Shown: positions 32,995-52,071 of the stretch, one piece after another
Position numbering within the stretch: the first letter of the stretch is position 1
How the letters are laid out: each line of letters opens with the position of its first letter
Assembly (NCBI RefSeq): GCF_000801295.1
Contig: NZ_AP012978.1
Location: forward strand, 2,339,001-2,403,000
Length of the DNA stretch: 64,000 bases
Source of the DNA: an endosymbiont of unidentified scaly snail isolate Monju
Lineage (GTDB): Bacteria; Pseudomonadota; Gammaproteobacteria; Chromatiales; Chromatiaceae
Reading direction: 5' to 3'
The notes under the pieces: model-generated
Told to the model about the DNA's origin: nothing
What the model saw: only the letters and a program-made list of their open reading frames with translations
Database searches by the model: none
Made by a program: the position numbers and the translations under genes

Positions 32995-33696
32995 TCAGAA
33001 CTCGTCACCCTCGGTTCTGCGGGTGTCCTTGAAGGTGCGCCAGCCGCTGATCATGGAACTGATGATCGACTGCCGCGACATGATGTCCTCGCGCACCGCG
33101 ACGTACACGTGAATGATGACGAAGACGATGATGTACCACATGATCAGGTGATGCCAGGTATGCACATCCTGGCTCTGGCCGAACAGGGGAATCACCCAGG
33201 CACTGAACAGTTCGTACTGCCAGGACCCCATGCCCGTACCCTCCCCGTACAGCGCGAAGCCGGTCACGATCATGAACACGATGCCCCAGACGAACACCAC
33301 ATACATCACCAGCTGGGCCAGTGGATTGTGACCGATGTATTTCTTCGGTTCTTTTGTCAGGAAAAGGTACCAGCGCACCTCGTGGATTACCCCCTTCCAC
33401 CACTCCGCACTGAACAGAGGAGGCAGAATGATCTGCCGCGCGTGCTCGTTGCCCATAAACGCCCAGTAGATGCGGAACAGGAAACCGATGGCGACCACGT
33501 AGCCCGCCGCGAAGTGAGCGAAGCGGATATACCCCATCAGGAAGTTGTCGATGGCTTCGCCCGGCATGCTGGGCAACGGGCTACCGATGAAATACCCGGT
33601 GATCGCCAGCGCATTGACCCAGTGCCACAGGCGCACCGGTGCCTCGTAGACATACACCGCCGGCTCGGCATGTACCCTGGCTGCTTTGCTTGTCAT
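32995..33696 (-). CDS. hupC: Ni/Fe-hydrogenase b-type cytochrome subunit
   Basis: 233 residues from ATG 33696, chosen because GGAGG lies 8 bases ahead; an ATG at 33711 is in the same frame. Four membrane helices hold two haems: conserved His in VRLWHWVNALAI (helix 1), FAHFAAGYV (helix 2) and the pair TWHHLIMWYIIVFVIIHVY (helix 4). It anchors HupSL on the periplasmic side and passes electrons to quinone. Third gene of hupSLC. Confidence 0.95.
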   Translation of the reverse strand: MTSKAARVHAEPAVYVYEAPVRLWHWVNALAITGYFIGSPLPSMPGEAIDNFLMGYIRFAHFAAGYVVAIGFLFRIYWAFMGNEHARQIILPPLFSAEWWKGVIHEVRWYLFLTKEPKKYIGHNPLAQLVMYVVFVWGIVFMIVTGFALYGEGTGMGSWQYELFSAWVIPLFGQSQDVHTWHHLIMWYIIVFVIIHVYVAVREDIMSRQSIISSMISGWRTFKDTRRTEGDEF

Positions 33697-33748
33697 GGAC
33701 TTGTCCTCCATCGAGCGGCCCCTTGCGGGGCCGCGGTCGGTTGGTCGC

Positions 33749-35563
33749 TCAGCGGATCTTGACTTCGGTCAGCTCCTCGCCGTCTTCGCTCATCACGTGC
33801 GTGGAACAGGCGAGACAGGGATCGAAGCTGTGCAGGCTGCGCAGGATTTCCACCGGCTCGTCCGGGCGCTCCATCGGCGTGTTCAGCAGGCAGGCCTCGA
33901 AAGCGCCGATGTTGCCGGCCGGATCACGCGGCGAACCGTTCCAGGTAGTGGGCACTACACACTGGTAGTTCTCGATGCGCCCGTCCTTGATATGGATCCA
34001 GTGCCCCAGCGCTCCGCGCGGCGCGGCCACGGTACCCACGCCCTTGGCCTCCTTCGGCCAGGTCGAGGGATCCCACTTCTCCATGTTGGCGGTGGCCGTG
34101 TCGCCGGCCTTGATATTGGCAATCAGCTCGTTCCAGTCGTCCACCATCATGTCGGCGCAGTACTCGGCCTCGAGCGCACGCGCCAGGGTGCGGCCGATGG
34201 TGGAGTTCAGCGCGGTCTTGACATCCAGATTGGTGCCCGCCAGACGGTTGAAGGCGGCCAGACTGGTATCCACCTGGTTGCGCACGTATTCGACGCCGTG
34301 CGCATAGGCCAGGGTGTAGCGCGACAGCGGGCCGACCTCGACCGCATGGCCGCGCCAGCGCGGGGCCTTGATCCAGGAGTACTTGGCGCTCTCGTCGAGC
34401 TCCTGGATGTTGGTACGGGTGCCCTTGGTCTTCGGTCCCAGCTCATAGTTCGGCTCGGTGATGCCGTCCCAGGGATGCAGGCCGACCGACTCGTCGGGAT
34501 AGCTGTACCAGGAATGCGCCACGAACTCCTGCACCTGCTCGGGGTCGCGCGGATCGATCTCGTAGATCTCGTCCCAGTTGCCATTGAGGATGACGCCGCC
34601 GGGCAGCTGGTCGGTGGACTTGTCGTAGTTGACCTTGGGATAGGCACCATAGTCCATGACGTTGATCGCACCGTGACCGCCGCCATAGAGCCAGTCCTTG
34701 TAGAAACTGGCGATGGCGATGACATCGGGCAGGTAGACGTTCTTGCAGAAGTCCACCATCTCCTGGATGCGCGCGCGCACGAAGTTGAGCCGTTCCATGT
34801 TCAGCGGGGCACCGGCCGAAAGATCGCCGTCCATGTTGATCGCGCAGGGCACGCCACCCACCAGGTAGTTGGGGTGCGGGTTCTTGCCGCCGAAGACAGT
34901 GTGAACCTTGACGAACTCCTTCTGCAGATCCAGCGCCTCGAGATAATGGGCCACCGCCATCAGGTCGGCTTCGGGCGGCAGCTTGTAGGCCGGGTTGTCC
35001 CAGTAGCCATTCTTGAAGGGACCCAGCTGACCCGACTCGATGAACTTGCGGATGCGCGTCTGGATGTCACGGAAGTAACCGGGACTGGAGAGCGGGTGGC
35101 GCGGCGAGACGCTCTGCTGCAACACCGAGGTCGCCTTGGGGTCGGCCTTCAGGGCGTTGACCGGGTTCACCCAGTCGAGCGCGTGCAGGTGATAGAAGTG
35201 CACCACGTGGTCGTGGACCTGAAGGGTCTTGGCCATCATCTCGCGGATCAGGTGCGCATTCTTGGGGATGCGGATGCCCAGCGCATCCTCCACCGCGCGC
35301 ACCGAGGTGAGCGCGTGACAGCCGGTGCACACGCCGCAGATACGCTCCACGAAGGCCCAGGCGTCGCGCGGGTCGCGCCCCTTGAGAATCACCTCGAGGC
35401 CGCGCCACATGGTGCCGGTGGACACCGCGTTGCGGATCACGTTGTTCTCGTCCACGTTGACCTCGCAACGCATGTGACCCTCGATACGGCTCACCGGATC
35501 GACGACCACGCGCCGACCGCTGCTGTCCAGGGTATAACCGTTGGGTGTCTTGATGACGCTCAT
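33749..35563 (-). CDS. hupL: [NiFe]-hydrogenase large subunit, membrane-bound uptake type
   Basis: 604 residues. The nickel-iron site is held by [10 protein letters not shown] (Cys76, Cys79) and DPCLACSTH (Cys583, Cys586). After His589 is a 15-residue extension, [15 protein letters not shown], removed by the HupD protease after nickel insertion. The extra Cys82 in CTGCHA is typical of group 1d O2-tolerant enzymes such as Ralstonia HoxG. Splits H2 in the periplasm, with electrons passing to HupS and then HupC. The gene is intact. Confidence 0.97.
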
Positions 35564-35568
35564 TTAGA

Positions 35569-36636
35569 TCACTCCTCTCCCTTGTTGGCGGCACGCTTGA
35601 CGGCGCTCACGGCGGCATGGGCGGCAACCGCGCCGCCCACCACGGCGGCCACGCCTCCACCCACGGCATCAGCGTTGCTCTCGATGCCGAACTGGTTGAT
35701 ATCGGTCAGACGGGCATACCAGGAACCCTTGTCCCAGAAGCCATCCTCGGAACAGCCGATGCAGCCGTGCCCGGCCTGGATGGGGAACGAGGTCCCTTCG
35801 TTCCAGCGAATGGTGGAACAGGCGTTGTAGGTGGTCGGCCCCTTGCAGCCCATCTTGTACAGGCAGTAGCCCTTGCGCGCGCCCTCGTCGTCCCAGGACT
35901 CGACGAACTGGCCGGCGTCGAAATGCGGCCGGCGGTAGCAGTTGTCGTGGATGCGCTGGCTGTAGAACATCTTGGGCCGCCCCTGGCGGTCCAGTTCGGG
36001 CATGCGCTCGAAGGTGAGCATGTAGGTGACCACCGCGGTCATCACCTCGGCGATGGGCGGGCAGCCCGGCACCTTGATGATCGGCTTGTCGGTGATGACC
36101 TTGTGCACCGACGTGGCCCGCGTCGAGTTGGGCTTGGCCGCCTGCACGCAACCATAGGACGCGCACGACCCCCAGGAGATGATGGCCTTGCAGTGCTCGG
36201 TCGCGTAACGCAGCTGTTCGACGAAGGGCTTGCCGCCGACGATGCAATACATGCCGTCTTCGTTGAGCGGCGGATTACCCTCGACCGCCACGATGTAGTT
36301 GCCCTTGTACTTCTCGACGATCTCATCGACGATGGCCTCGGCCTGGTGCCCGGACGCCGCCATGATGGTGTCGTCGTAGTCCAGCGAGACCATGGACAGG
36401 ATCACGTCCTTGGCCAGGGGGTGGGCCGAACGGATGAACGACTCGGAACAGCAGGTGCATTCAAGACCGTGCAGCCAAAGGATGGGAATGCGCGGCTTGT
36501 TCTCCATCGCGTGGGCGATCTTGCCGGCGAACTCCGGCCCCAGCCCCAGTGCCGCAGCGGTGAGACTGCAGAACTTGAGGAAACTGCGTCGGGATATCCC
36601 TTGCCGCCGCATCACTTCGTAAAAGGTTTCGGTCAT
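35569..36636 (-). CDS. hupS: [NiFe]-hydrogenase small subunit, O2-tolerant signature, Tat-exported
   Basis: 355 residues. A twin-Arg signal (Arg16-Arg17 in SRRSFLKF) exports the folded HupSL heterodimer. The proximal cluster region reads [11 protein letters not shown], with the extra Cys beyond the usual CxxC, and a second extra Cys is in [10 protein letters not shown]. These six cysteines mark the [4Fe-3S] cluster of O2-tolerant enzymes. The medial and distal cluster region is [10 protein letters not shown] to CIGCSED. The C-terminal membrane helix is [20 protein letters not shown]. First gene of the operon, behind a sigma-54-like promoter. Confidence 0.97.
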
Positions 36637-36691
36637 CGCTTGGATTCCTCCGGATTCTCGGTTCGGTACCCCCTTTGGGTCGCTTTGGCCT

Positions 36692-36707
36692 TTCAAAACC
36701 CGTGCCA
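36692..36707 (-). promoter_or_regulatory. Candidate sigma-54 promoter of hupSLC
   Basis: Minus-strand TGGCACG, 4 bases, TTGAA: the -24 box is perfect and the -12 box has TTGAA instead of TTGC(A/T), a single mismatch. About 55 bases separate it from the hupS ATG. A sigma-54 promoter fits the presence of the NtrC-family regulator HupR in the divergent operon. Confidence 0.65.
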
Positions 36708-36764
36708 ACAGAAAAAATCTGATATAAAACCGCTACTTGCCATCCTCTCTCCAAAACTTCCGGC

Positions 36765-37025: not shown

Positions 37026-37730
37026 ATGAACGAACCGACAGACAAGCAGGTACTGATTCTCGGCATCGGCAACATCCTCTGGGCCGACGAGGGTTTCGGC
37101 GTACGTGCGGTCGAGACGCTCAACCAGCGCTACACCTTCGCCGACAACGTCACCCTGATGGATGGCGGCACCCAGGGCATCTACCTGGTCCAGCACGTGC
37201 AGTCCGCCGATTACCTGGTGGTGTTCGACGCCATCGACTACGGCCTGCCCCCGGGCACCCTGAAATGCATCGAGGATGACGCGGTGCCGCAATTCATGGG
37301 CGCCAAGAAGATGAGCCTGCACCAGACCGGCTTCCAGGAAGTGCTGGCGATGGCGCAACTGCTCGGCGACTATCCCGAGCGCCTGCTGCTGGTCGGGGTG
37401 CAGCCCAAAGAACTCGAAGACTACGGCGGGAGCCTGCGCCCCGTGGTGCGCGCGCAGATCGAACCGGCCATCGAAGCCGCACTGGACTGGCTGGGCGCGC
37501 TCGGCGTCGTCGCCCGGCCGCGCGCCACCCCGCTGCCCGAGGATGCGCGCCTGACCCCGCCGCAGATCGATCTCGAACCCTACGAGCGCGACCGCCCACC
37601 GGAAGAGGCCGCGCCGCGTCTCGGCGATGCCCGCATCCTCGCGCGCGACGACGTGCGCTTCGACCCCAAACCTGTCGAATTCGACGGCCCACGCCTGAGC
37701 GTGTGCATAGACCACCGGAGAGACGACTGA
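37026..37730 (+). CDS. hupD: Hydrogenase maturation endopeptidase
   Basis: 234 residues. Cleaves the C-terminal extension of HupL after nickel insertion. The family start ILGIGNILWADEGFGVRAVE includes the metal-sensing Glu/Asp, then LMDGGTQGIYLVQHVQ and VVFDAIDYGLPPG with the second acidic residue; the His ligand lies in SLHQTGFQEVL. The C-terminal ~50 residues are an unusual Pro/Arg-rich tail (RPRATPLPEDARLTP onward). ATG 37026 has no strong Shine-Dalgarno. Its stop overlaps hupF. Confidence 0.95.
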   Translation: MNEPTDKQVLILGIGNILWADEGFGVRAVETLNQRYTFADNVTLMDGGTQGIYLVQHVQSADYLVVFDAIDYGLPPGTLKCIEDDAVPQFMGAKKMSLHQTGFQEVLAMAQLLGDYPERLLLVGVQPKELEDYGGSLRPVVRAQIEPAIEAALDWLGALGVVARPRATPLPEDARLTPPQIDLEPYERDRPPEEAAPRLGDARILARDDVRFDPKPVEFDGPRLSVCIDHRRDD

Positions 37731-43925: not shown

Positions 43926-45228
43926 TGCACCGCAGCGAACCAGTCAATGACAGCACCACCTTCACCGAACTGGCCGACCAGGCCCTGTCCTCGGGCGGCC
44001 TGGGCGAAGAGGCCTGGGCGAAGAGGCCTGGGTCGAGGTCATCCGCCGCATGGACACCATCTATGCCGACCTGGTGCACTACCAGGTCGAACTCGAGCAC
44101 AAGAACGAGGAGCTCGAGGAGGCCCAGCACTTCATCGACTCGGTACTCTCGGCCATGTCCGACGTGCTGGTGGTGGCCGACATCAACGGCCGCATCCAGC
44201 GCGTCAACCAGGCCATGCTGGACATGACCGGCAAGCGCGCAGAGGAACTGCTCGAGCGGGACATCACCATCCTGTTCACCGGCGACTCGGTGAATATGGT
44301 GCGCGAGTTTCCGCAGAGGGTGCGCGACCATGCCATCACCGACTGCGAGGCCGAGATGCTCGGCGCCGATGGCGAGGCAGTGCCCATCGCCATCAACTGC
44401 AGCCCACGCTACGACAGCAACGGCGTGCTCTCCGGCATGGTCATCACCGGTCGTCAGCTCGGCGAGCTGCGCCGCGCCTACCGCGAGTTGCAGGACGCCC
44501 ACCAGCGCCTCAAGGATGCCCAGCGCCAACTGGTGCAATCCGAGAAGATGGCCTCGCTCGGCCGCCTGGTGGCCGGGGTCGCGCACGAGCTGAACAACCC
44601 CATCAGTTTCGTCTTCGGCAACATGCACGCACTCAAGCGCTACGAAGGCCGCCTGCTCAAGGACATCGGCCCCCTGATCGACGGCTCGCTCGAGGGCGCC
44701 GAGCGGGTCAGCACCATCGTGCAGAACCTGCGCCGCTTCGCCACGCCCAATCACCAGGGGCAGAACTGGTTCGACCTGAGCCGGCTGGTCGAGAACGCCG
44801 TCACCTGGGTAGCCAAGACCACGCGCACCACACCCGAACTGTACTTCGACATGCCCGAAGAACTGCCGGTGCACGGCAGCGAGGGCCATGTGCATCAGAT
44901 CCTGATCAACCTGGTGCAGAACGCCATCGACGCCATGGAGGACCTGCCGCAACCGCGGCTCGACATCCACGTGATCCGGCAGCCAAACCGCGTCGAGGTC
45001 CACATCCGCGACCACGGTCCCGGCATCCCCGAAGAACACCTGCTGCACATCTTCGATCCCTTCTTCACCACCAAGGAGATCGGCAAGGGCACCGGGCTGG
45101 GGCTGTACATCAGCTACGGCCTGGCCACCGAGCAGTGCGGCGGCGACCTGAGCGCAACCAACCATCCCGAAGGCGGCGCCGAGTTCGTGCTCTCCCTGCC
45201 GCTGGAACACGGAGGCACGAGCACATGA
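43925..45228 (+). pseudogene. hupT: H2-signalling sensor histidine kinase HupT/HoxJ, broken by a 14-bp tandem duplication
   Basis: ATG 43925 overlaps the hupR stop. The reading frame is lost at 44001-44028, where a 14-bp unit (TGGGCGAAGAGGCC) is present twice; removing one copy restores ...GEEAWVEVIRRMDTIYADLVHYQ and a 429-residue protein. The rest holds a PAS domain (about 75-180), the H-box VAGVAHELNNPISFV with the phospho-His, and the N and G boxes (INLVQNAID, DHGPGIP, GTGLGLY). A shorter start at ATG 44050 would keep the kinase core but lose about 40 N-terminal residues. HupT normally phosphorylates HupR when no H2 is sensed. Confidence 0.85.
44001..44028 (+). repeat. 14-bp perfect tandem duplication in hupT
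   Basis: TGGGCGAAGAGGCC twice in a row, then TGGG. The extra 14 bases change the reading frame by +2. No other gene in the cluster has such an insertion in that place. Confidence 0.9.
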
Positions 45229-46268
45229 GCGAGCGCCTCACTCTGCTTTGGCTCCAATCCGGCGGTTGCGGCGGTTGCGGCGGTTGCGGCGGTTGCGGCG
45301 GTTGCGGCGGTTGCAGCATGTCGCTGCTCGATGCCGAGCACCCCGATCTCTACGGTGCACTCGAACTGTCGGACATCGAACTGCTCTGGCACCCTTCCTT
45401 GAGCGAGGCCAGTGCCGAGGAGTTTCTCGACCTGCTCGGACGCATCTCGCGCGGCGAACAACGCCTCGACATCCTCTGCCTCGAGGGCTCGGTGATGCAA
45501 GGCCCGGACGGCACCGGCCGCTTCCACCTGCTCGCCGGCAGCGGCCGCCCCATGCGCGACTGGCTTCGTGAACTGGCCGGGCTGGCGCGCCACGTGGTCG
45601 CCATCGGCAGTTGCGCGGCCTTCGGCGGCATCACCGCTGCCGGCGACAACCCCGGCGAGGCCTGTGGCCTGCAATACACGGGCGAACACCCCGGCGGCCT
45701 GCTTGGCGAGGACTGGCAGGCTGCCGGCGGCCTGCCGGTGATCAACATTGCCGGCTGCCCCATCCACCCCGGCTGGGTACTCGACTGCCTGGCACAGTTG
45801 GCGCTGGATGAACTGGACGAAGACGCACTCGACGAATACCACCGCCCGCGCAACTACACCGATCATCTGGTCCACCACGGCTGCCCGCGCAACGAGTACT
45901 ACGAATTCAAGGCCAGCGCCGAGAAGCCCGGCGATCAGGGCTGCATGATGGAGCACATGGGCTGTCTGGGCACCCAGGCGCGCGCCGATTGCAATATCCG
46001 CCCCTGGAACGGCGGCGGCTCCTGCCTCAAGGGCGGCTATGCCTGCATCAACTGCACCGCACCGGCCTTCGAAACCCCCAATCACCCCTTCCAGGAGACG
46101 CCCAAGCTGGGGGGTATTCCGATCGGCCTGCCCAGCGATATGCCCAAGGCCTGGTTCGTGGCCCTGGCCTCGCTGGCCAAGGCCGCCATCCCCGAACGTC
46201 TGCGCCGCAACGCGGTGGCCGAACACATCGAGGTGCCGCCCACCGGCGGCCGGCGGAGGCGACCATGA
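45225..46268 (+). CDS. hupU: Regulatory (H2-sensing) hydrogenase small subunit, with repeat-expanded cluster motif
   Basis: 347 residues, no signal peptide, so cytoplasmic as expected for HupU/HoxB. Other cluster ligands are in place: GSCAAFGG, NIAGCPIHPGW, HHGCPRNEYYEF, CMMEHMGCLG and CIN-type motifs. The N-terminal proximal motif normally reads SGGCGGC before SMSLL; here the Gly-Gly-Cys triplet is repeated six times (bases 45261-45314), adding about 12 residues and four cysteines compared with the usual two repeats. It partners HupV and reports H2 to HupT. In frame, but perhaps inactive. Confidence 0.9.
   Translation: MSERLTLLWLQSGGCGGCGGCGGCGGCGGCSMSLLDAEHPDLYGALELSDIELLWHPSLSEASAEEFLDLLGRISRGEQRLDILCLEGSVMQGPDGTGRFHLLAGSGRPMRDWLRELAGLARHVVAIGSCAAFGGITAAGDNPGEACGLQYTGEHPGGLLGEDWQAAGGLPVINIAGCPIHPGWVLDCLAQLALDELDEDALDEYHRPRNYTDHLVHHGCPRNEYYEFKASAEKPGDQGCMMEHMGCLGTQARADCNIRPWNGGGSCLKGGYACINCTAPAFETPNHPFQETPKLGGIPIGLPSDMPKAWFVALASLAKAAIPERLRRNAVAEHIEVPPTGGRRRRP
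45261..45314 (+). repeat. GGCGGTTGC nine-base tandem array, six copies
   Basis: Six perfect copies of GGCGGTTGC in the hupU frame encode (Gly-Gly-Cys)6. The proximal [4Fe-4S] ligand motif CxxC lies inside the array. Unit perfection implies recent expansion by slippage. Confidence 0.92.
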
Positions 46269-47712
46269 GCCGGCGGCTATACGGTCCTTTCAACCGTGTC
46301 GAGGGCGATCTCGAGGTGCAGGTCGAGATCGAAGACGGCCGTATCAAAGCCGCCTGGGTCAACTCGCCCCTGTTCCGCGGCTTCGAACAGATCCTGCACG
46401 GCCGCGACCCACGCGACGCCCTGGTCTACACACCCCTCGCATCTGCGGCATCTGCTCGGTCTCGCAGTCGGTGGCCGCGGCCTCCGCGCTGCGCGAGGCC
46501 ATGGGGCTCGAGATGCCCGACAACGGCCGCCTGGCGACCAACCTGGTGCTCGCCTGCGAGAACCTGGCCGATCACCTGACCCATTTCTACCTGTTCTTCA
46601 TGCCCGATTTCGCGCGCGAGGCCTACGCCGATCACCCTTGGCACGCGGCCATTACGGAACGCTTTCGCGCGCAGACCGGACGCTGCGCACGCGAGGTGCT
46701 GCCTGCGCGTGCAGCCTTCCTGCACCTGACCGGCATCCTCGCCGGCAAGTGGCCGCACAGCCTGAGCATCCAGCCCGGCGGCTCGACCCGCCCGCTCGAG
46801 CCCCAGGAGCGCATCCGCCTGCGCCAGATCGTCGGCCAGTTCCGACAGTTCCTCGAGACCACCCTGTTCGGCGACGCACTCGAATCGGTCGCTGCGCTGG
46901 ACTCCCCCGACGCGCTGGACGACTGGGCCGAACGTCACGCCGACAGCGACTTCGGGCGTTTCCTGCAGGTCGCCGGGGCGCTGGATCTCGCCACCATCGG
47001 CCGCGGCCCCGACCGCTTCCTGAGCTTCGGCGCCTACGCACAGGCCGATGGCCACCTGTTCGCGCGCGGCACCTGGGCAGATGGCGAACGCGGTGCGCTC
47101 GATCCCTCGGCCATCCGCGAGGACGTGAGCTGCAGCTGGATGCGGTCGCAGAACGGCCCGCGCCATCCACGCGAAGGCGCCACCCTGCCAGCCGCCGACA
47201 AGCCCGGGGCCTACAGCTGGTGCAAGGCGCCGCGCCTGGATGGCCAGGTGATGGAGACCGGCGCACTGGCTCGCCAGCTGATCGACGACCACCCGCTGAT
47301 CCGCGCCCTGGTCGCCCAGAGCGGTGGCAATGTGCGCAACCGCGTGATCGCGCGCCTGCTGGAGCTGGCGCGCCTGGTGCCGGTAATGGAAGACTGGGTG
47401 TTGGAGCTGCGCCCGCGCGAGCCCTTCTGCCTCGACGCCCCGGTCCCCGACGAGGCCGAGGGTGCCGGGCTGGTGGAGGCCGCGCGCGGCAGCCTGGGCC
47501 ACTGGCTGCGGATACGCAACGGGCGCATCCTCAACTACCAGATCATCGCCCCGACCACCTGGAACTTCTCGCCGCGCGACGCCGAAGGCACCCCTGGCGC
47601 GCTGGAGCAGGCGCTCGTCGGGTTGGCCGTCGGGCCAGACGGGCGCGACGCGGTGGCCATCCAGCACGTGGTGCGCTCCTTCGACCCCTGCATGGTCTGC
47701 ACGGTGCACTGA
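46265..47712 (+). pseudogene. hupV: Regulatory hydrogenase large subunit, frameshifted by an AC duplication
   Basis: The start ATG 46265 overlaps the hupU stop. The frame shifts at (AC)3, bases 46428-46433, just before the first metal-site motif; with (AC)2 it reads ...DALVYTPRICGICSVSQS, as in HupV/HoxC (about 481 residues). L1 is RICGICSVS and L2 is DPCMVCTVH ending the protein, without the cleavable tail, which is the regulatory type. As read, translation from 46265 ends early at 46577-46579, so no complete HupV is made. Confidence 0.87.
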
Positions 47713-47713
47713 G

Positions 47714-49096
47714 ATGAACGCCCTGAGCCGCCTCGCCACCGACCAACCGACCACCTGGCGCATCCGTGTGCGTGGCATCGTGCAGGGCGTGGGCTTCCGC
47801 CCGGCGGTGTGGCGGCTGGCGCGCACGCTGGGCCTGTCCGGCGAGGTCCTCAACGATGGTGACGGCGTGGCGATCCGCCTGCACGGCCTGGCCGCCGAGA
47901 TCGACGACTTCATGACCCGGCTGCGCCGCGATCCGCCCCCGCTGGCACGCATCGACACCCTCGAGACACTGCGCCAGCGCAAGCGGCGGCCGCGCAAGCC
48001 GCTGGCGCTGATGGCGCGCGACCTCGAGGTGATCGCACGCTACCGCACCCTCTCCACCACCGAGCAGCGCGCGCTGGAGGACCGCGCCGCCCCCATCGTG
48101 CTGCTCGAGCACCCCGGCCCCGAGCAACTGCCCGAGGCCGTCGCTCCCGGTAGCGGCGCACTGGGCTTCATGCTGCCCCATTCGCCACTGCATCACCTGC
48201 TGGCGCGGCATTTCGACACCCCGCTGGTCTTCACCTCGGGTAACGCCTCGGGCCGCCCCCAGTGCACCGACAACGACGAAGCACTCGCCAGACTGGGCGC
48301 GATCGCCGACGCCTTCCTGCTGCACGACCGCGCCATCGTCAACCGCGTGGACGACTCGGTGCTGCGCCTGATCGATGGCACACCCGCGCCCCTGCGCCGT
48401 GCACGCGGCTTCGCGCCCACGCCCCTGCCCCTGCCGCCGGGGCTGGAGGACGCCCCGCCGCTGCTCGCCCTCGGCGGCGAGCTGAAGAACACCTTCTGCC
48501 TGCTGCGCGAGGGGCAGGCCACCCTCTCGCAGCACATCGGAGACCTGGAGCAGGCCGACACCTGGCGCGACTGGCAGGACCAGCTCGAACGCTTTGCCAG
48601 GCTGTTCGCACACCGCCCCCAGGCCATCGCCATCGACGGCCATCCCGGCTACCGCAGCAGTGCCTGGGGCCGCGACCGGGCCACGCGCGAGGGCCTGCCG
48701 CTGATCACCGTGCAACATCATCACGCCCACCTGGCCGCCTGCCTGGCCGAGCACGGCGTGCCGGCGGATGCCGGTCCCTCGCTGGGTATCGTGCTCGACG
48801 GCATCGGCCACGGCGAGGACGGCAGCGGCTGGGGCGGTGAACTGCTGGTTGGCGACTACCGGGACTTCCGCCGAATCGCGCGGCTGCGTCCGGCGGCCCT
48901 GCCCGGCGGCGCGCAGGCCATGCGCGAACCTTGGCGCAACTTGGCCGCGCGGCTGCTGGCCGAGCAGCTCTGCGAGCGCCTGCGTGCGGCAGATCTGCAA
49001 GTACTTATTCACCGGCAGGTACCTGCCAACGATGGGGGGCTGGCGCTCGGCCAGGCCTGCATTGCGGCGGCGCGCCTGCGCGAGCAACGGAGGTAG
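47714..49096 (+). CDS. hypF: HypF carbamoyltransferase, reduced form with two apparent internal deletions
   Basis: 460 residues against about 750 in E. coli HypF. The acylphosphatase domain is present (RGIVQGVGFRPAVW, about residue 20) and the Kae1-like part has VQHHHAHLAACLAEHG and DGIGHGEDGSGWGGE. After ARIDTLETL the chain goes straight to RQRKRRPRKPLALM, so both Cys4 zinc motifs and the first part of the YrdC domain are missing. A second gap follows EPWRNLAARLL, where the SxGRLFDA region is absent before PANDGGLALGQA. Each junction is in frame. HypF makes the cyanide ligands; whether this form works is doubtful. Confidence 0.88.
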   Translation: MNALSRLATDQPTTWRIRVRGIVQGVGFRPAVWRLARTLGLSGEVLNDGDGVAIRLHGLAAEIDDFMTRLRRDPPPLARIDTLETLRQRKRRPRKPLALMARDLEVIARYRTLSTTEQRALEDRAAPIVLLEHPGPEQLPEAVAPGSGALGFMLPHSPLHHLLARHFDTPLVFTSGNASGRPQCTDNDEALARLGAIADAFLLHDRAIVNRVDDSVLRLIDGTPAPLRRARGFAPTPLPLPPGLEDAPPLLALGGELKNTFCLLREGQATLSQHIGDLEQADTWRDWQDQLERFARLFAHRPQAIAIDGHPGYRSSAWGRDRATREGLPLITVQHHHAHLAACLAEHGVPADAGPSLGIVLDGIGHGEDGSGWGGELLVGDYRDFRRIARLRPAALPGGAQAMREPWRNLAARLLAEQLCERLRAADLQVLIHRQVPANDGGLALGQACIAAARLREQRR

Positions 49097-49101
49097 GAAT
49101 C

Positions 49102-49386
49102 ATGTGTCTGGGCATTCCGGGACAGATCGTGGAGATCGTCGATCACGAAAACCTGCTGGCGCGGGTGGACGTCTCCGGCGTGCGCCGCGAGATCAACATC
49201 GCCTGCATCGTCGATGACGCGCACCCGCCCGAGGCCTGCGTCGGCGACTGGGTGCTGGTGCATGTCGGCTTCGCCATGAGCCGCATCGACGAGGCCGAGG
49301 CGCGCAAGACACTCGCGCTGCTCGACCAGCTCGGCGAGGTGGAGGCCGAACTCGCGACCATGCGCGCCAGCGAGGCGCCAGCATGA
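49102..49386 (+). CDS. hypC: Hydrogenase maturation chaperone HypC
   Basis: 94 residues starting MCLGIPGQIVEI, with Cys2 as iron-delivery ligand and the conserved GDWVLVHVGFAMSRIDEAEA. It forms the HypCD complex where the Fe(CN)2CO group is built. Preceded by GGAGG. A coupled start follows for the SIS-domain gene. Confidence 0.96.
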   Translation: MCLGIPGQIVEIVDHENLLARVDVSGVRREINIACIVDDAHPPEACVGDWVLVHVGFAMSRIDEAEARKTLALLDQLGEVEAELATMRASEAPA

Positions 49387-50063
49387 ACGATACCCTCGAC
49401 GCCCTCTACCCCTTTCTCGCCGGCGGCGCCAAGGACCCGCAGGCCGAGCAGGAGGCGCTGTGCGAGTCGGTGCGCCGCAAGGCCACGCACAGCGTGGAGG
49501 TCAAGCAGGACTTCTTCGCGCGCAACACCGAGGCGCTGATCGCCTGTGCCCGCGACCTGGCCGCACGCTACCGTGAAGGCGGGCGCCTGTTCACCATGGG
49601 CAACGGCGGCTCGAGCTGCGATGCGGCCCACCTGGCAGTGGAGTTCCAGCACCCGGTGACCACCGGGCGGCCCGCGCTGCCGGCGATGAACCTGGTCATG
49701 GACGCCGCCATGTGCTCGGCGGTGGCCAATGACGTGGGCGTGGAGCATGTCTTCGTGCGCCAACTCGAGGCCCATGCCCGCGCCGGCGACGCCCTGGCCG
49801 GCTTCTCCACCAGCGGCAATTCCGCCAACCTGATGCGTGCCTTCGCCCGTGCCCGCGAACTGGGCCTGTTGACCATCGGCTTCGCCGGAGGTGACGGCGG
49901 CGAGATGCGCGCCTCGGGCCTGCTGGACCACTGCCTGGTGGTCGAGACCGACTCCATCCACCGTGTGCAGGAAGTGCACGTGGCCTGTTACCACATCCTC
50001 TGGGATCTGACACACACACTGCTCGCCGACAGCCGCGGGCATGCGGGAGGGAAGACATCATGA
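49383..50063 (+). CDS. SIS-domain sugar isomerase-like protein (GmhA-like) inside the hyp operon
   Basis: 226 residues. The SIS domain resembles sedoheptulose-7-phosphate isomerase GmhA: FTMGNGGSSCDAAHLAVEFQHPV (phosphate loop, about residues 69-91), FSTSGNSANLMRAFARA (about 140), VVETDSIHRVQEVHVACYHILWDL at the end with the His/Glu pair. It overlaps hypC and hypD by four bases each, so it is a true operon member and not a stray gene. Heptose synthesis is normally encoded with LPS genes, so a maturation-linked role, for example on a small phosphosugar or a ligand source, is possible but unproven. Confidence 0.82.
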   Translation: MNDTLDALYPFLAGGAKDPQAEQEALCESVRRKATHSVEVKQDFFARNTEALIACARDLAARYREGGRLFTMGNGGSSCDAAHLAVEFQHPVTTGRPALPAMNLVMDAAMCSAVANDVGVEHVFVRQLEAHARAGDALAGFSTSGNSANLMRAFARARELGLLTIGFAGGDGGEMRASGLLDHCLVVETDSIHRVQEVHVACYHILWDLTHTLLADSRGHAGGKTS

Positions 50064-51052
50064 AATTCGTCGACGAGTTCCGCGACCCGGACAAGGCACG
50101 CGCCCTGATCCGCGAGATCGAGACCCTGCTGCCGCACATTCCGCGCGCAGACGAGCGGCCGCTGCAAATCATGGAATTCTGCGGGGGACACACCCACACC
50201 ATCTTCCGCTACGGCCTGGAGCAGATGCTGCCCGGGGCCATCGAGCTGGTGCACGGCCCCGGCTGCCCGGTGTGCGTGCTGCCGATGGGGCGGGTGGACG
50301 ACTGCGTGGCGCTGGCCGAGCGTCCCGAGGTGATCTTCTTCGCACTCGGCTTCGAGACCACCATGCCCAGCACCGCGCTCACCGTGCTGGCGGCCGAGCG
50401 CGAGGGCATCGACAACTTCTCACTGTTCTGCAACCACATCACCACGGTGCCGACCATCAAGGCCATCCTCGATTCGCCGGACATGCAGATCGACGCCTTC
50501 CTCGCACCGGGACACGTGAGCATGGTGGTCGGTGAGGCGCCCTTCCGCTTCGTCGCCGAAGACTACGGCAAGCCCATCGTCATCACCGGCTTCGAGCCAC
50601 TCGACATCCTGCAATCGCTGTGGATGGTGATCCGCCAGCTCGCCGAGGGCCGCTGCGAGGTCGAGAACCAGTACCGGCGCATCGTGCCGCCCGAGGGCAA
50701 CAGCGCCGGCCTGGAAGCGGTGGCCAAGGTCTTCGAGCTGCGCGAGTTCTTCGAGTGGCGCGGCCTGGGCTCGATCGACCATTCGGGCGTGCGCATGCGC
50801 GAGGAATACGCGCACTTCGACGCCGAACGCAAGTTCCCGGTGCCCAGCCTGAAGATCGCCGATCCGCGCTCCTGCCAGTGCGGCGAGGTGCTCAAGGGCG
50901 TGATCCGCCCCTGGGAGTGCAAGGTCTACGGGCGCCAGTGCACCCCGCAGACACCGATGGGCGCGCTCATGGTCTCCTCCGAGGGAACCTGCGCCGCCTA
51001 CTACCAGTACGGCCGCCTGGCCGTCGAGGCACAGCGAGGGCAGGCAGGATGA
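50060..51052 (+). CDS. hypD: Hydrogenase maturation protein HypD, apparent internal deletion
   Basis: 330 residues against about 373. N-terminal KFVDEFRDP, the active Cys in CGGHTHTIF, GPGCPVCVLP and the C-terminal 4Fe-4S region (CQCGEVLKG, CKVYGRQCTP, SSEGTCAAYYQY) are present. After ALAERPEVIF the next residues are FALGFETTMP, whereas HypD relatives have about 47 residues here, including the highly conserved FGDxxRVPG motif. The gap is in frame. HypD carries the iron centre for CN and CO attachment, so loss of this segment probably abolishes function. Confidence 0.88.
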   Translation: MKFVDEFRDPDKARALIREIETLLPHIPRADERPLQIMEFCGGHTHTIFRYGLEQMLPGAIELVHGPGCPVCVLPMGRVDDCVALAERPEVIFFALGFETTMPSTALTVLAAEREGIDNFSLFCNHITTVPTIKAILDSPDMQIDAFLAPGHVSMVVGEAPFRFVAEDYGKPIVITGFEPLDILQSLWMVIRQLAEGRCEVENQYRRIVPPEGNSAGLEAVAKVFELREFFEWRGLGSIDHSGVRMREEYAHFDAERKFPVPSLKIADPRSCQCGEVLKGVIRPWECKVYGRQCTPQTPMGALMVSSEGTCAAYYQYGRLAVEAQRGQAG

Positions 51053-52071
51053 ACGGAACCATCACCCTGGCGCACGGCGCCGGCGGGCGGGCGATGCGTG
51101 AGCTGATCGACACGCTGTTCGTCGGCGGCTATGGCAACGACCTGCTGGCCGCGCTCGAGGACCAGGCACGACTGGAACTCGATGCCCTGGTCGCGCGCGG
51201 CGACCGCCTGGCCTTCACCACCGACAGCTACGTCGTCGATCCGCTGTTCTTTCCCGGCGGCGACATCGGCAAGCTGGCGATCACCGGCACGGTCAACGAC
51301 CTGGCCGTCGGCGGCGCCCGCCCACTGTACCTCTCCTGCGGGATGATCCTCGAGGAGGGCCTGCCGCTGGACACCCTGCGTCGGGTGGTCGCCTCCATGA
51401 AGGCCACCGCCGACGAGGCCGGGGTGCAGATCGTCACCGGCGACACCAAGGTCGTGCACCGGGGCGCGGCCGACAAGCTGTTCATCAACACCGCCGGCAT
51501 CGGGGTCATCCCTGCCGGGGTGGACATCCGCGCGGCACGTGCCCGACCGGGTGACCGCATCCTGGTCAACGGCTGGATCGGCGATCACGGTGCGGCCATC
51601 GTCGATGCCCGGGGCGAGCTGGCGCTGGACAACCCGGTGGAGACCGACTGCCAGCCACTCGGTGGCCTGGTGGAGGCCATGCTCGCCGCCTGCCCCGACA
51701 TCCACTGCCTGCGCGACGCCACCCGCGGGGGACTCGCCGGGGTACTCAACGAGTTCGCCACCGCCAGCAGCTGTGCGCTGCACATCGAGGAGACGGCCGT
51801 GCCGATCCGCGATACGGTGCGCGGGGTATGCGAGATCCTCGGCCTGGACCCGCTGTACCTGGCCAACGAGGGCAAGCTGGTGGCCATCGTCGCACCCGAG
51901 GACGCCGAGCCCGTGCTCGAGGCCATGCGCGCCCACCCGGCCGGGCGCGACGCCGCCATCATCGGCGAGGTGACCGAGTCGCCCGCCGGCAGCGTGATCC
52001 TGCACACCGGCTTCGGTGGCGAACGCATCGTCGATCTGCTGGTTGGCGAACAACTCCCGAGAATCTGCTGA
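51049..52071 (+). CDS. hypE: Hydrogenase maturation protein HypE
   Basis: 340 residues, normal. The N-terminal LAHGAGGRAMRELI, the ATP region DSYVVDPLFFPGGDIGKLAITGTVNDLAVGGA, DATRGGLAGVLNE and the C-terminal Cys in QLPRIC that carries thiocyanate. It dehydrates carbamoyl-Cys from HypF. Appears intact, unlike hypF and hypD. Confidence 0.96.
   Translation: MNGTITLAHGAGGRAMRELIDTLFVGGYGNDLLAALEDQARLELDALVARGDRLAFTTDSYVVDPLFFPGGDIGKLAITGTVNDLAVGGARPLYLSCGMILEEGLPLDTLRRVVASMKATADEAGVQIVTGDTKVVHRGAADKLFINTAGIGVIPAGVDIRAARARPGDRILVNGWIGDHGAAIVDARGELALDNPVETDCQPLGGLVEAMLAACPDIHCLRDATRGGLAGVLNEFATASSCALHIEETAVPIRDTVRGVCEILGLDPLYLANEGKLVAIVAPEDAEPVLEAMRAHPAGRDAAIIGEVTESPAGSVILHTGFGGERIVDLLVGEQLPRIC

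Follow-up and report, generated by a model that had tools for sequence, protein, structure and literature searches.

The gene at 47714..49096 of the window (the whole stretch of 64,000 nucleotides that we analysed, positions 2339001-2403000 of a single contig of 2,597,759 bp) is most likely a broken hypF, a member of a known family disrupted by a known kind of event, and not a new minimal enzyme. In the maturation of NiFe hydrogenases, HypF is the source of the carbamoyl group, and HypD serves as the scaffold on which the Fe(CN)2CO unit is built. We think it probable that the H2-sensing genes and the maturation functions of HypD and HypF have undergone a recent, repeat-mediated decay that is real in the organism. 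The original prediction had described an internally shortened HypF, and the coordinates, the length of 460 residues and the open frame all agree with this description.

We compared the region with Chromatiaceae bacterium CTD079 (CP037918), the closest complete relative found, and with the metagenome-assembled genomes M1 and GammaLau-197, which share 93-97% DNA identity with it. Between 44.0 and 52.1 kb the genes run in the order sensor histidine kinase, hoxB, hoxC, hypF, hypC, SIS-domain gene, hypD, hypE, preceded by hypB, which appears intact, and an NtrC-type regulator. The features of this run are as follows.

44050..45228, + strand: hoxJ-like PAS sensor histidine kinase, 28 amino acids lost
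44649..44656, + strand: deletion junction in the kinase gene, 84 bp lost, 8-bp repeat CCGCCTGC
45228..46268, + strand: hoxB-like small subunit of a regulatory (H2-sensing) hydrogenase, 59% identity with the Cupriavidus necator regulatory hydrogenase small subunit
45260..45314, + strand: 9-bp tandem array CGGCGGTTG in hoxB, 6.1 copies, at the CxxC (CGGC) FeS motif
46265..47712, + strand: hoxC-like regulatory hydrogenase large subunit, frameshifted, 55% identity with the C. necator counterpart
46428..46429, + strand: hoxC frameshift, +2 nt (an extra AC in TACACC), absent from the three relatives
47714..49096, + strand: hypF, internally deleted, 460 amino acids (∼776 in CTD079)
47953..47966, + strand: hypF deletion junction 1, 489 bp lost; in the relatives the segment is flanked by a 12-16 bp imperfect direct repeat CGACACCCTCGAgac
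48950..48963, + strand: hypF deletion junction 2, 459 bp lost between copies of CTGCTGkCCGA
49102..49386, + strand: hypC, intact
50060..51052, + strand: hypD, 330 amino acids (379 in CTD079), 49 lost including the TFGDAMRVPGSK segment
50326..50338, + strand: hypD deletion junction, 147 bp lost, exact 13-bp repeat CGAGGTGATCTTC
51055..52071, + strand: hypE, intact

The hypF frame contains no internal stop codon. Pfam searches identify the acylphosphatase domain in the encoded protein (PF00708, 3.4e-19, profile positions 1-75 of 85), which had been expected to be kept. The match to YrdC covers profile positions 27-177 of 178, so the domain is incomplete, lacking about its first 26 positions; this is ∼15% of the profile and not the half that had been proposed. 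HypF_C is complete (2-99 of 99), but HypF_C_2 is present in two pieces (1-58 and 207-241 of 241), and the absence of positions 59-206 (∼148) leaves the Kae1-like domain incomplete. The second Kae1-like subdomain is therefore the larger loss compared with YrdC. No match to zf-HYPF and neither of the two Cys4 motifs is found in the window protein, whereas every one of these domains is complete in CTD079 HypF, including two zf-HYPF stretches. The TIGR00143 score of 444.2 bits falls below the curated cut-off of 466.1. Alignments show that the protein has lost conserved elements, namely the Cys4 motifs, KGxGGF (a strand of YrdC) and SGGVxQN (in the Kae1-like fold), and that it has retained the acylphosphatase motif, HHHAH, DGIG and DGGLALGQ. 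AlphaFold2, run with comparable alignments, returned a pLDDT of 77.1 and a pTM of 0.61 for the short protein (87.7 and 0.88 for an intact orthologue), and the leftover YrdC residues score ∼44-83 as compared with ∼82-94 in the orthologue; the YrdC remnant is predicted to fold poorly.

All three relatives encode a full-length HypF at the matching position and with the same neighbours, in an open frame of 885 codons there, and the residues kept in the window protein are 94-95% identical to theirs. Regional alignment reveals two clean gaps in the window gene, of 489 bp (163 amino acids) and 459 bp (153 amino acids), and these residues are carried by CTD079, M1 and GammaLau-197. Both gaps are in frame, as had been predicted; the second agrees with an anticipated loss of ∼150 residues near the C terminus, and the first does remove both Cys4 motifs but is somewhat shorter than the ∼170-200 residues that had been estimated. 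In the relatives, a CGACAC..TCGA-type repeat lies on either side of the segment missing at junction 1. At each hypF deletion site a single repeat copy is left, as is characteristic of deletion by short homology. The short layout is absent from all 80 homologues in other genomes, of which 79 contain two Cys4 motifs; the remaining one (L047) has one motif, its open reading frame lacking the N-terminal one. The gaps are therefore specific to the window genome when compared with three relatives and 80 of 80 homologues, and are not due to chance.

Comparison with the two HypF proteins encoded on pHG1 of C. necator places the window protein in the same family but in neither architecture. HypF2 (819 amino acids) is complete, with all five Pfam domains, and its gene precedes hypC and a SIS-domain gene, as does the window hypF. 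HypF1 (394 amino acids) is likewise a short HypF from a hyp operon, but it lacks the acylphosphatase, zinc and YrdC domains and consists of a complete Kae1-like domain alone. The window protein is the opposite of HypF1, having kept the acylphosphatase and lost most of the Kae1-like domain, and the layout of the Ralstonia HypF1 is indeed different, as originally noted. The SIS-domain (GmhA-like) gene of the window occupies positions 49383-50063, between hypC and hypD.

The hypF losses are accompanied by further damage. The hoxB and hoxC products resemble their C. necator counterparts, the large subunit ends in DPCxxCTVH and the kinase and NtrC-type regulator adjoin, as in a regulatory hydrogenase, but hoxC is frameshifted: the frame shifts after ∼57 codons, and the N-terminal MSRRLYGPFNRVEG... 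sits in another frame. The hoxB array has four units fewer in all three relatives; the additional 36 bp in the window insert 12 amino acids and convert SGGCGGCS into SGGCGGCGGCGGCGGCGGCS at the FeS motif. In total, six changes are private to the window genome within 6 kb (one each in the kinase gene, hoxB, hoxC and hypD, and two in hypF), and none of these sites is altered in any of the three relatives. Each of the six is linked to repeats. The genome contains neither a second hypF nor a second hypD.

Does the preservation of the reading frame speak for function? We used direct repeats spaced 80-600 bp within 373 genes predicted in one stretch of CTD079 as a repeat-phase null, and found that 95% lie in frame when the repeat measures 12 bp or more, and 98% when it measures 13 bp or more. 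Four in-frame deletions are thus expected from the repeats alone, and selection cannot be deduced from the in-frame pattern. The hoxC frameshift, moreover, shows that open frames are not maintained throughout this stretch. Slipped-strand deletions at short direct repeats, and bacterial pseudogene decay, likewise keep one repeat copy and lose the segment in between, within 1 kb. Unlike typical events of this type, several occur here in one functional module and most are in frame, the latter because the repeats are codon-phased.

In our preferred reading, slippage or recombination at short direct repeats would have removed two internal segments from a normal, full-length hypF, yielding a non-functional gene with a frame that is still open, as part of the group of six changes across one 6-kb H2-sensing and maturation stretch. 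We infer that the changes exist in living cells, that activity has been lost and that selection for H2 use is relaxed. The co-occurrence of deletions, an array expansion and a dinucleotide gain within a single functional module supports decay; the intact appearance of hypB, hypC, hypE, hupSL and the maturation protease counts against it. Private point changes are scarce (six in hypF, of which five are synonymous and one nonsynonymous, three in hypD and one in hypE), and hence the deletions are either very recent or artefacts.

We sampled stretches covering 459 kb (18%) of the genome. In 374 kb of aligned sequence there were 21 repeat-flanked deletions, four of them in the hypF stretch, a clustering that is marginal when deletions alone are counted (scan P ∼0.06). 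Elsewhere in the contig, a group of repeat-flanked deletions affects a GGDEF protein, a PilB/GspE-like ATPase and a DUF6701 protein (2473458-2484239), and napA has a 1-nt frameshift relative to CTD079 (∼2431765). Two adjacent ubiquinone hydroxylase genes are apparently fused and partly deleted compared with CTD079 (2515520-2517373; 33, 110, 120 and 327 bp), and a third is intact (2142507-2143649). Both mutS and recA are present, and their loss is thus not the cause of the changes.

A local sequencing or assembly artefact is a serious contender, although we give it rather less than an even chance. Such an artefact could have arisen by template switching, by deletion in a clone or by faulty closure of gaps at the short repeats of this GC-rich stretch, and would leave hypF, hypD and hoxC of the organism itself normal. 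The near absence of private point changes beside several large deletions is in line with this, as are similar clean deletions elsewhere in the 459-kb sample, among them the broken-looking ubiquinone hydroxylase pair, further odd indels of 1-2 nt such as that in napA, and the lack of large within-gene deletions in the three relatives across a shared 21 kb. However, a four-unit expansion and a dinucleotide gain are unusual for clone or PCR deletion, and the small indels lie mostly outside long homopolymers, which speaks against homopolymer-type sequencing error. The quinone genes are not decisive proof of an artefact, since all four genomes have a menA homologue.

It is improbable, in our view, that repeats in the H2-sensing and maturation genes act as switches, possibly reversible ones, that make symbiont strains differ in their hydrogen use from vent to vent or from host to host; the candidate elements would be the hoxB 9-bp array, AC slippage in hoxC and the deletion-prone repeats of hypF and hypD. 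Least credible is a working minimal HypF, in which acylphosphatase, reduced YrdC and Kae1-like core would suffice to carbamoylate HypE: the open frame and the retained motifs speak for it, but SGGVxQN, KGxGGF, both Cys4 motifs and 148 of 241 HypF_C_2 positions are gone, YrdC is poorly folded in the prediction, HypD, HoxB and HoxC are damaged as well, no homologue shares the layout (0 of 80) and the in-frame spacing is uninformative. Between the novel minimal and the dead HypF originally envisaged, the evidence, including the broken hypD and hoxC, favours a dead or mis-assembled one.

The window also encodes a membrane-bound hydrogenase.

32995..36708, - strand: uptake hydrogenase hupS, hupL and b-type cytochrome, motifs read in the translations
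37053..37493, + strand: hydrogenase maturation protease (HupD/HycI, TIGR00072), intact

The hupS, hupL and cytochrome genes have no large gap relative to the relatives, and a Tat signal is present. Damage to both HypF and HypD is expected to leave the cell without an active NiFe hydrogenase: the still intact membrane enzyme could not be matured, since both proteins are needed for its Fe(CN)2CO centre, and H2 sensing would be lost too.

H2 use by the scaly-foot snail symbiont has been described as unclear in a study that includes CTD079 as an outgroup and that reports the maturation protease to be absent in Kairei symbionts (PMC9381778). As the TIGR00072 gene is intact here, that absence must refer to some other feature or to a different annotation. 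Whether the changes are real or not, the preservation of the frame says little in favour of function where deletions arise at repeats in genes that are GC-rich and codon-biased. If they are artefacts, altered genes stand in a reference genome on which later population studies of the scaly-foot snail holobiont have relied. If they are real, they provide a concrete reason why the symbiont may be unable to use hydrogen despite its reported hydrogenase cluster.
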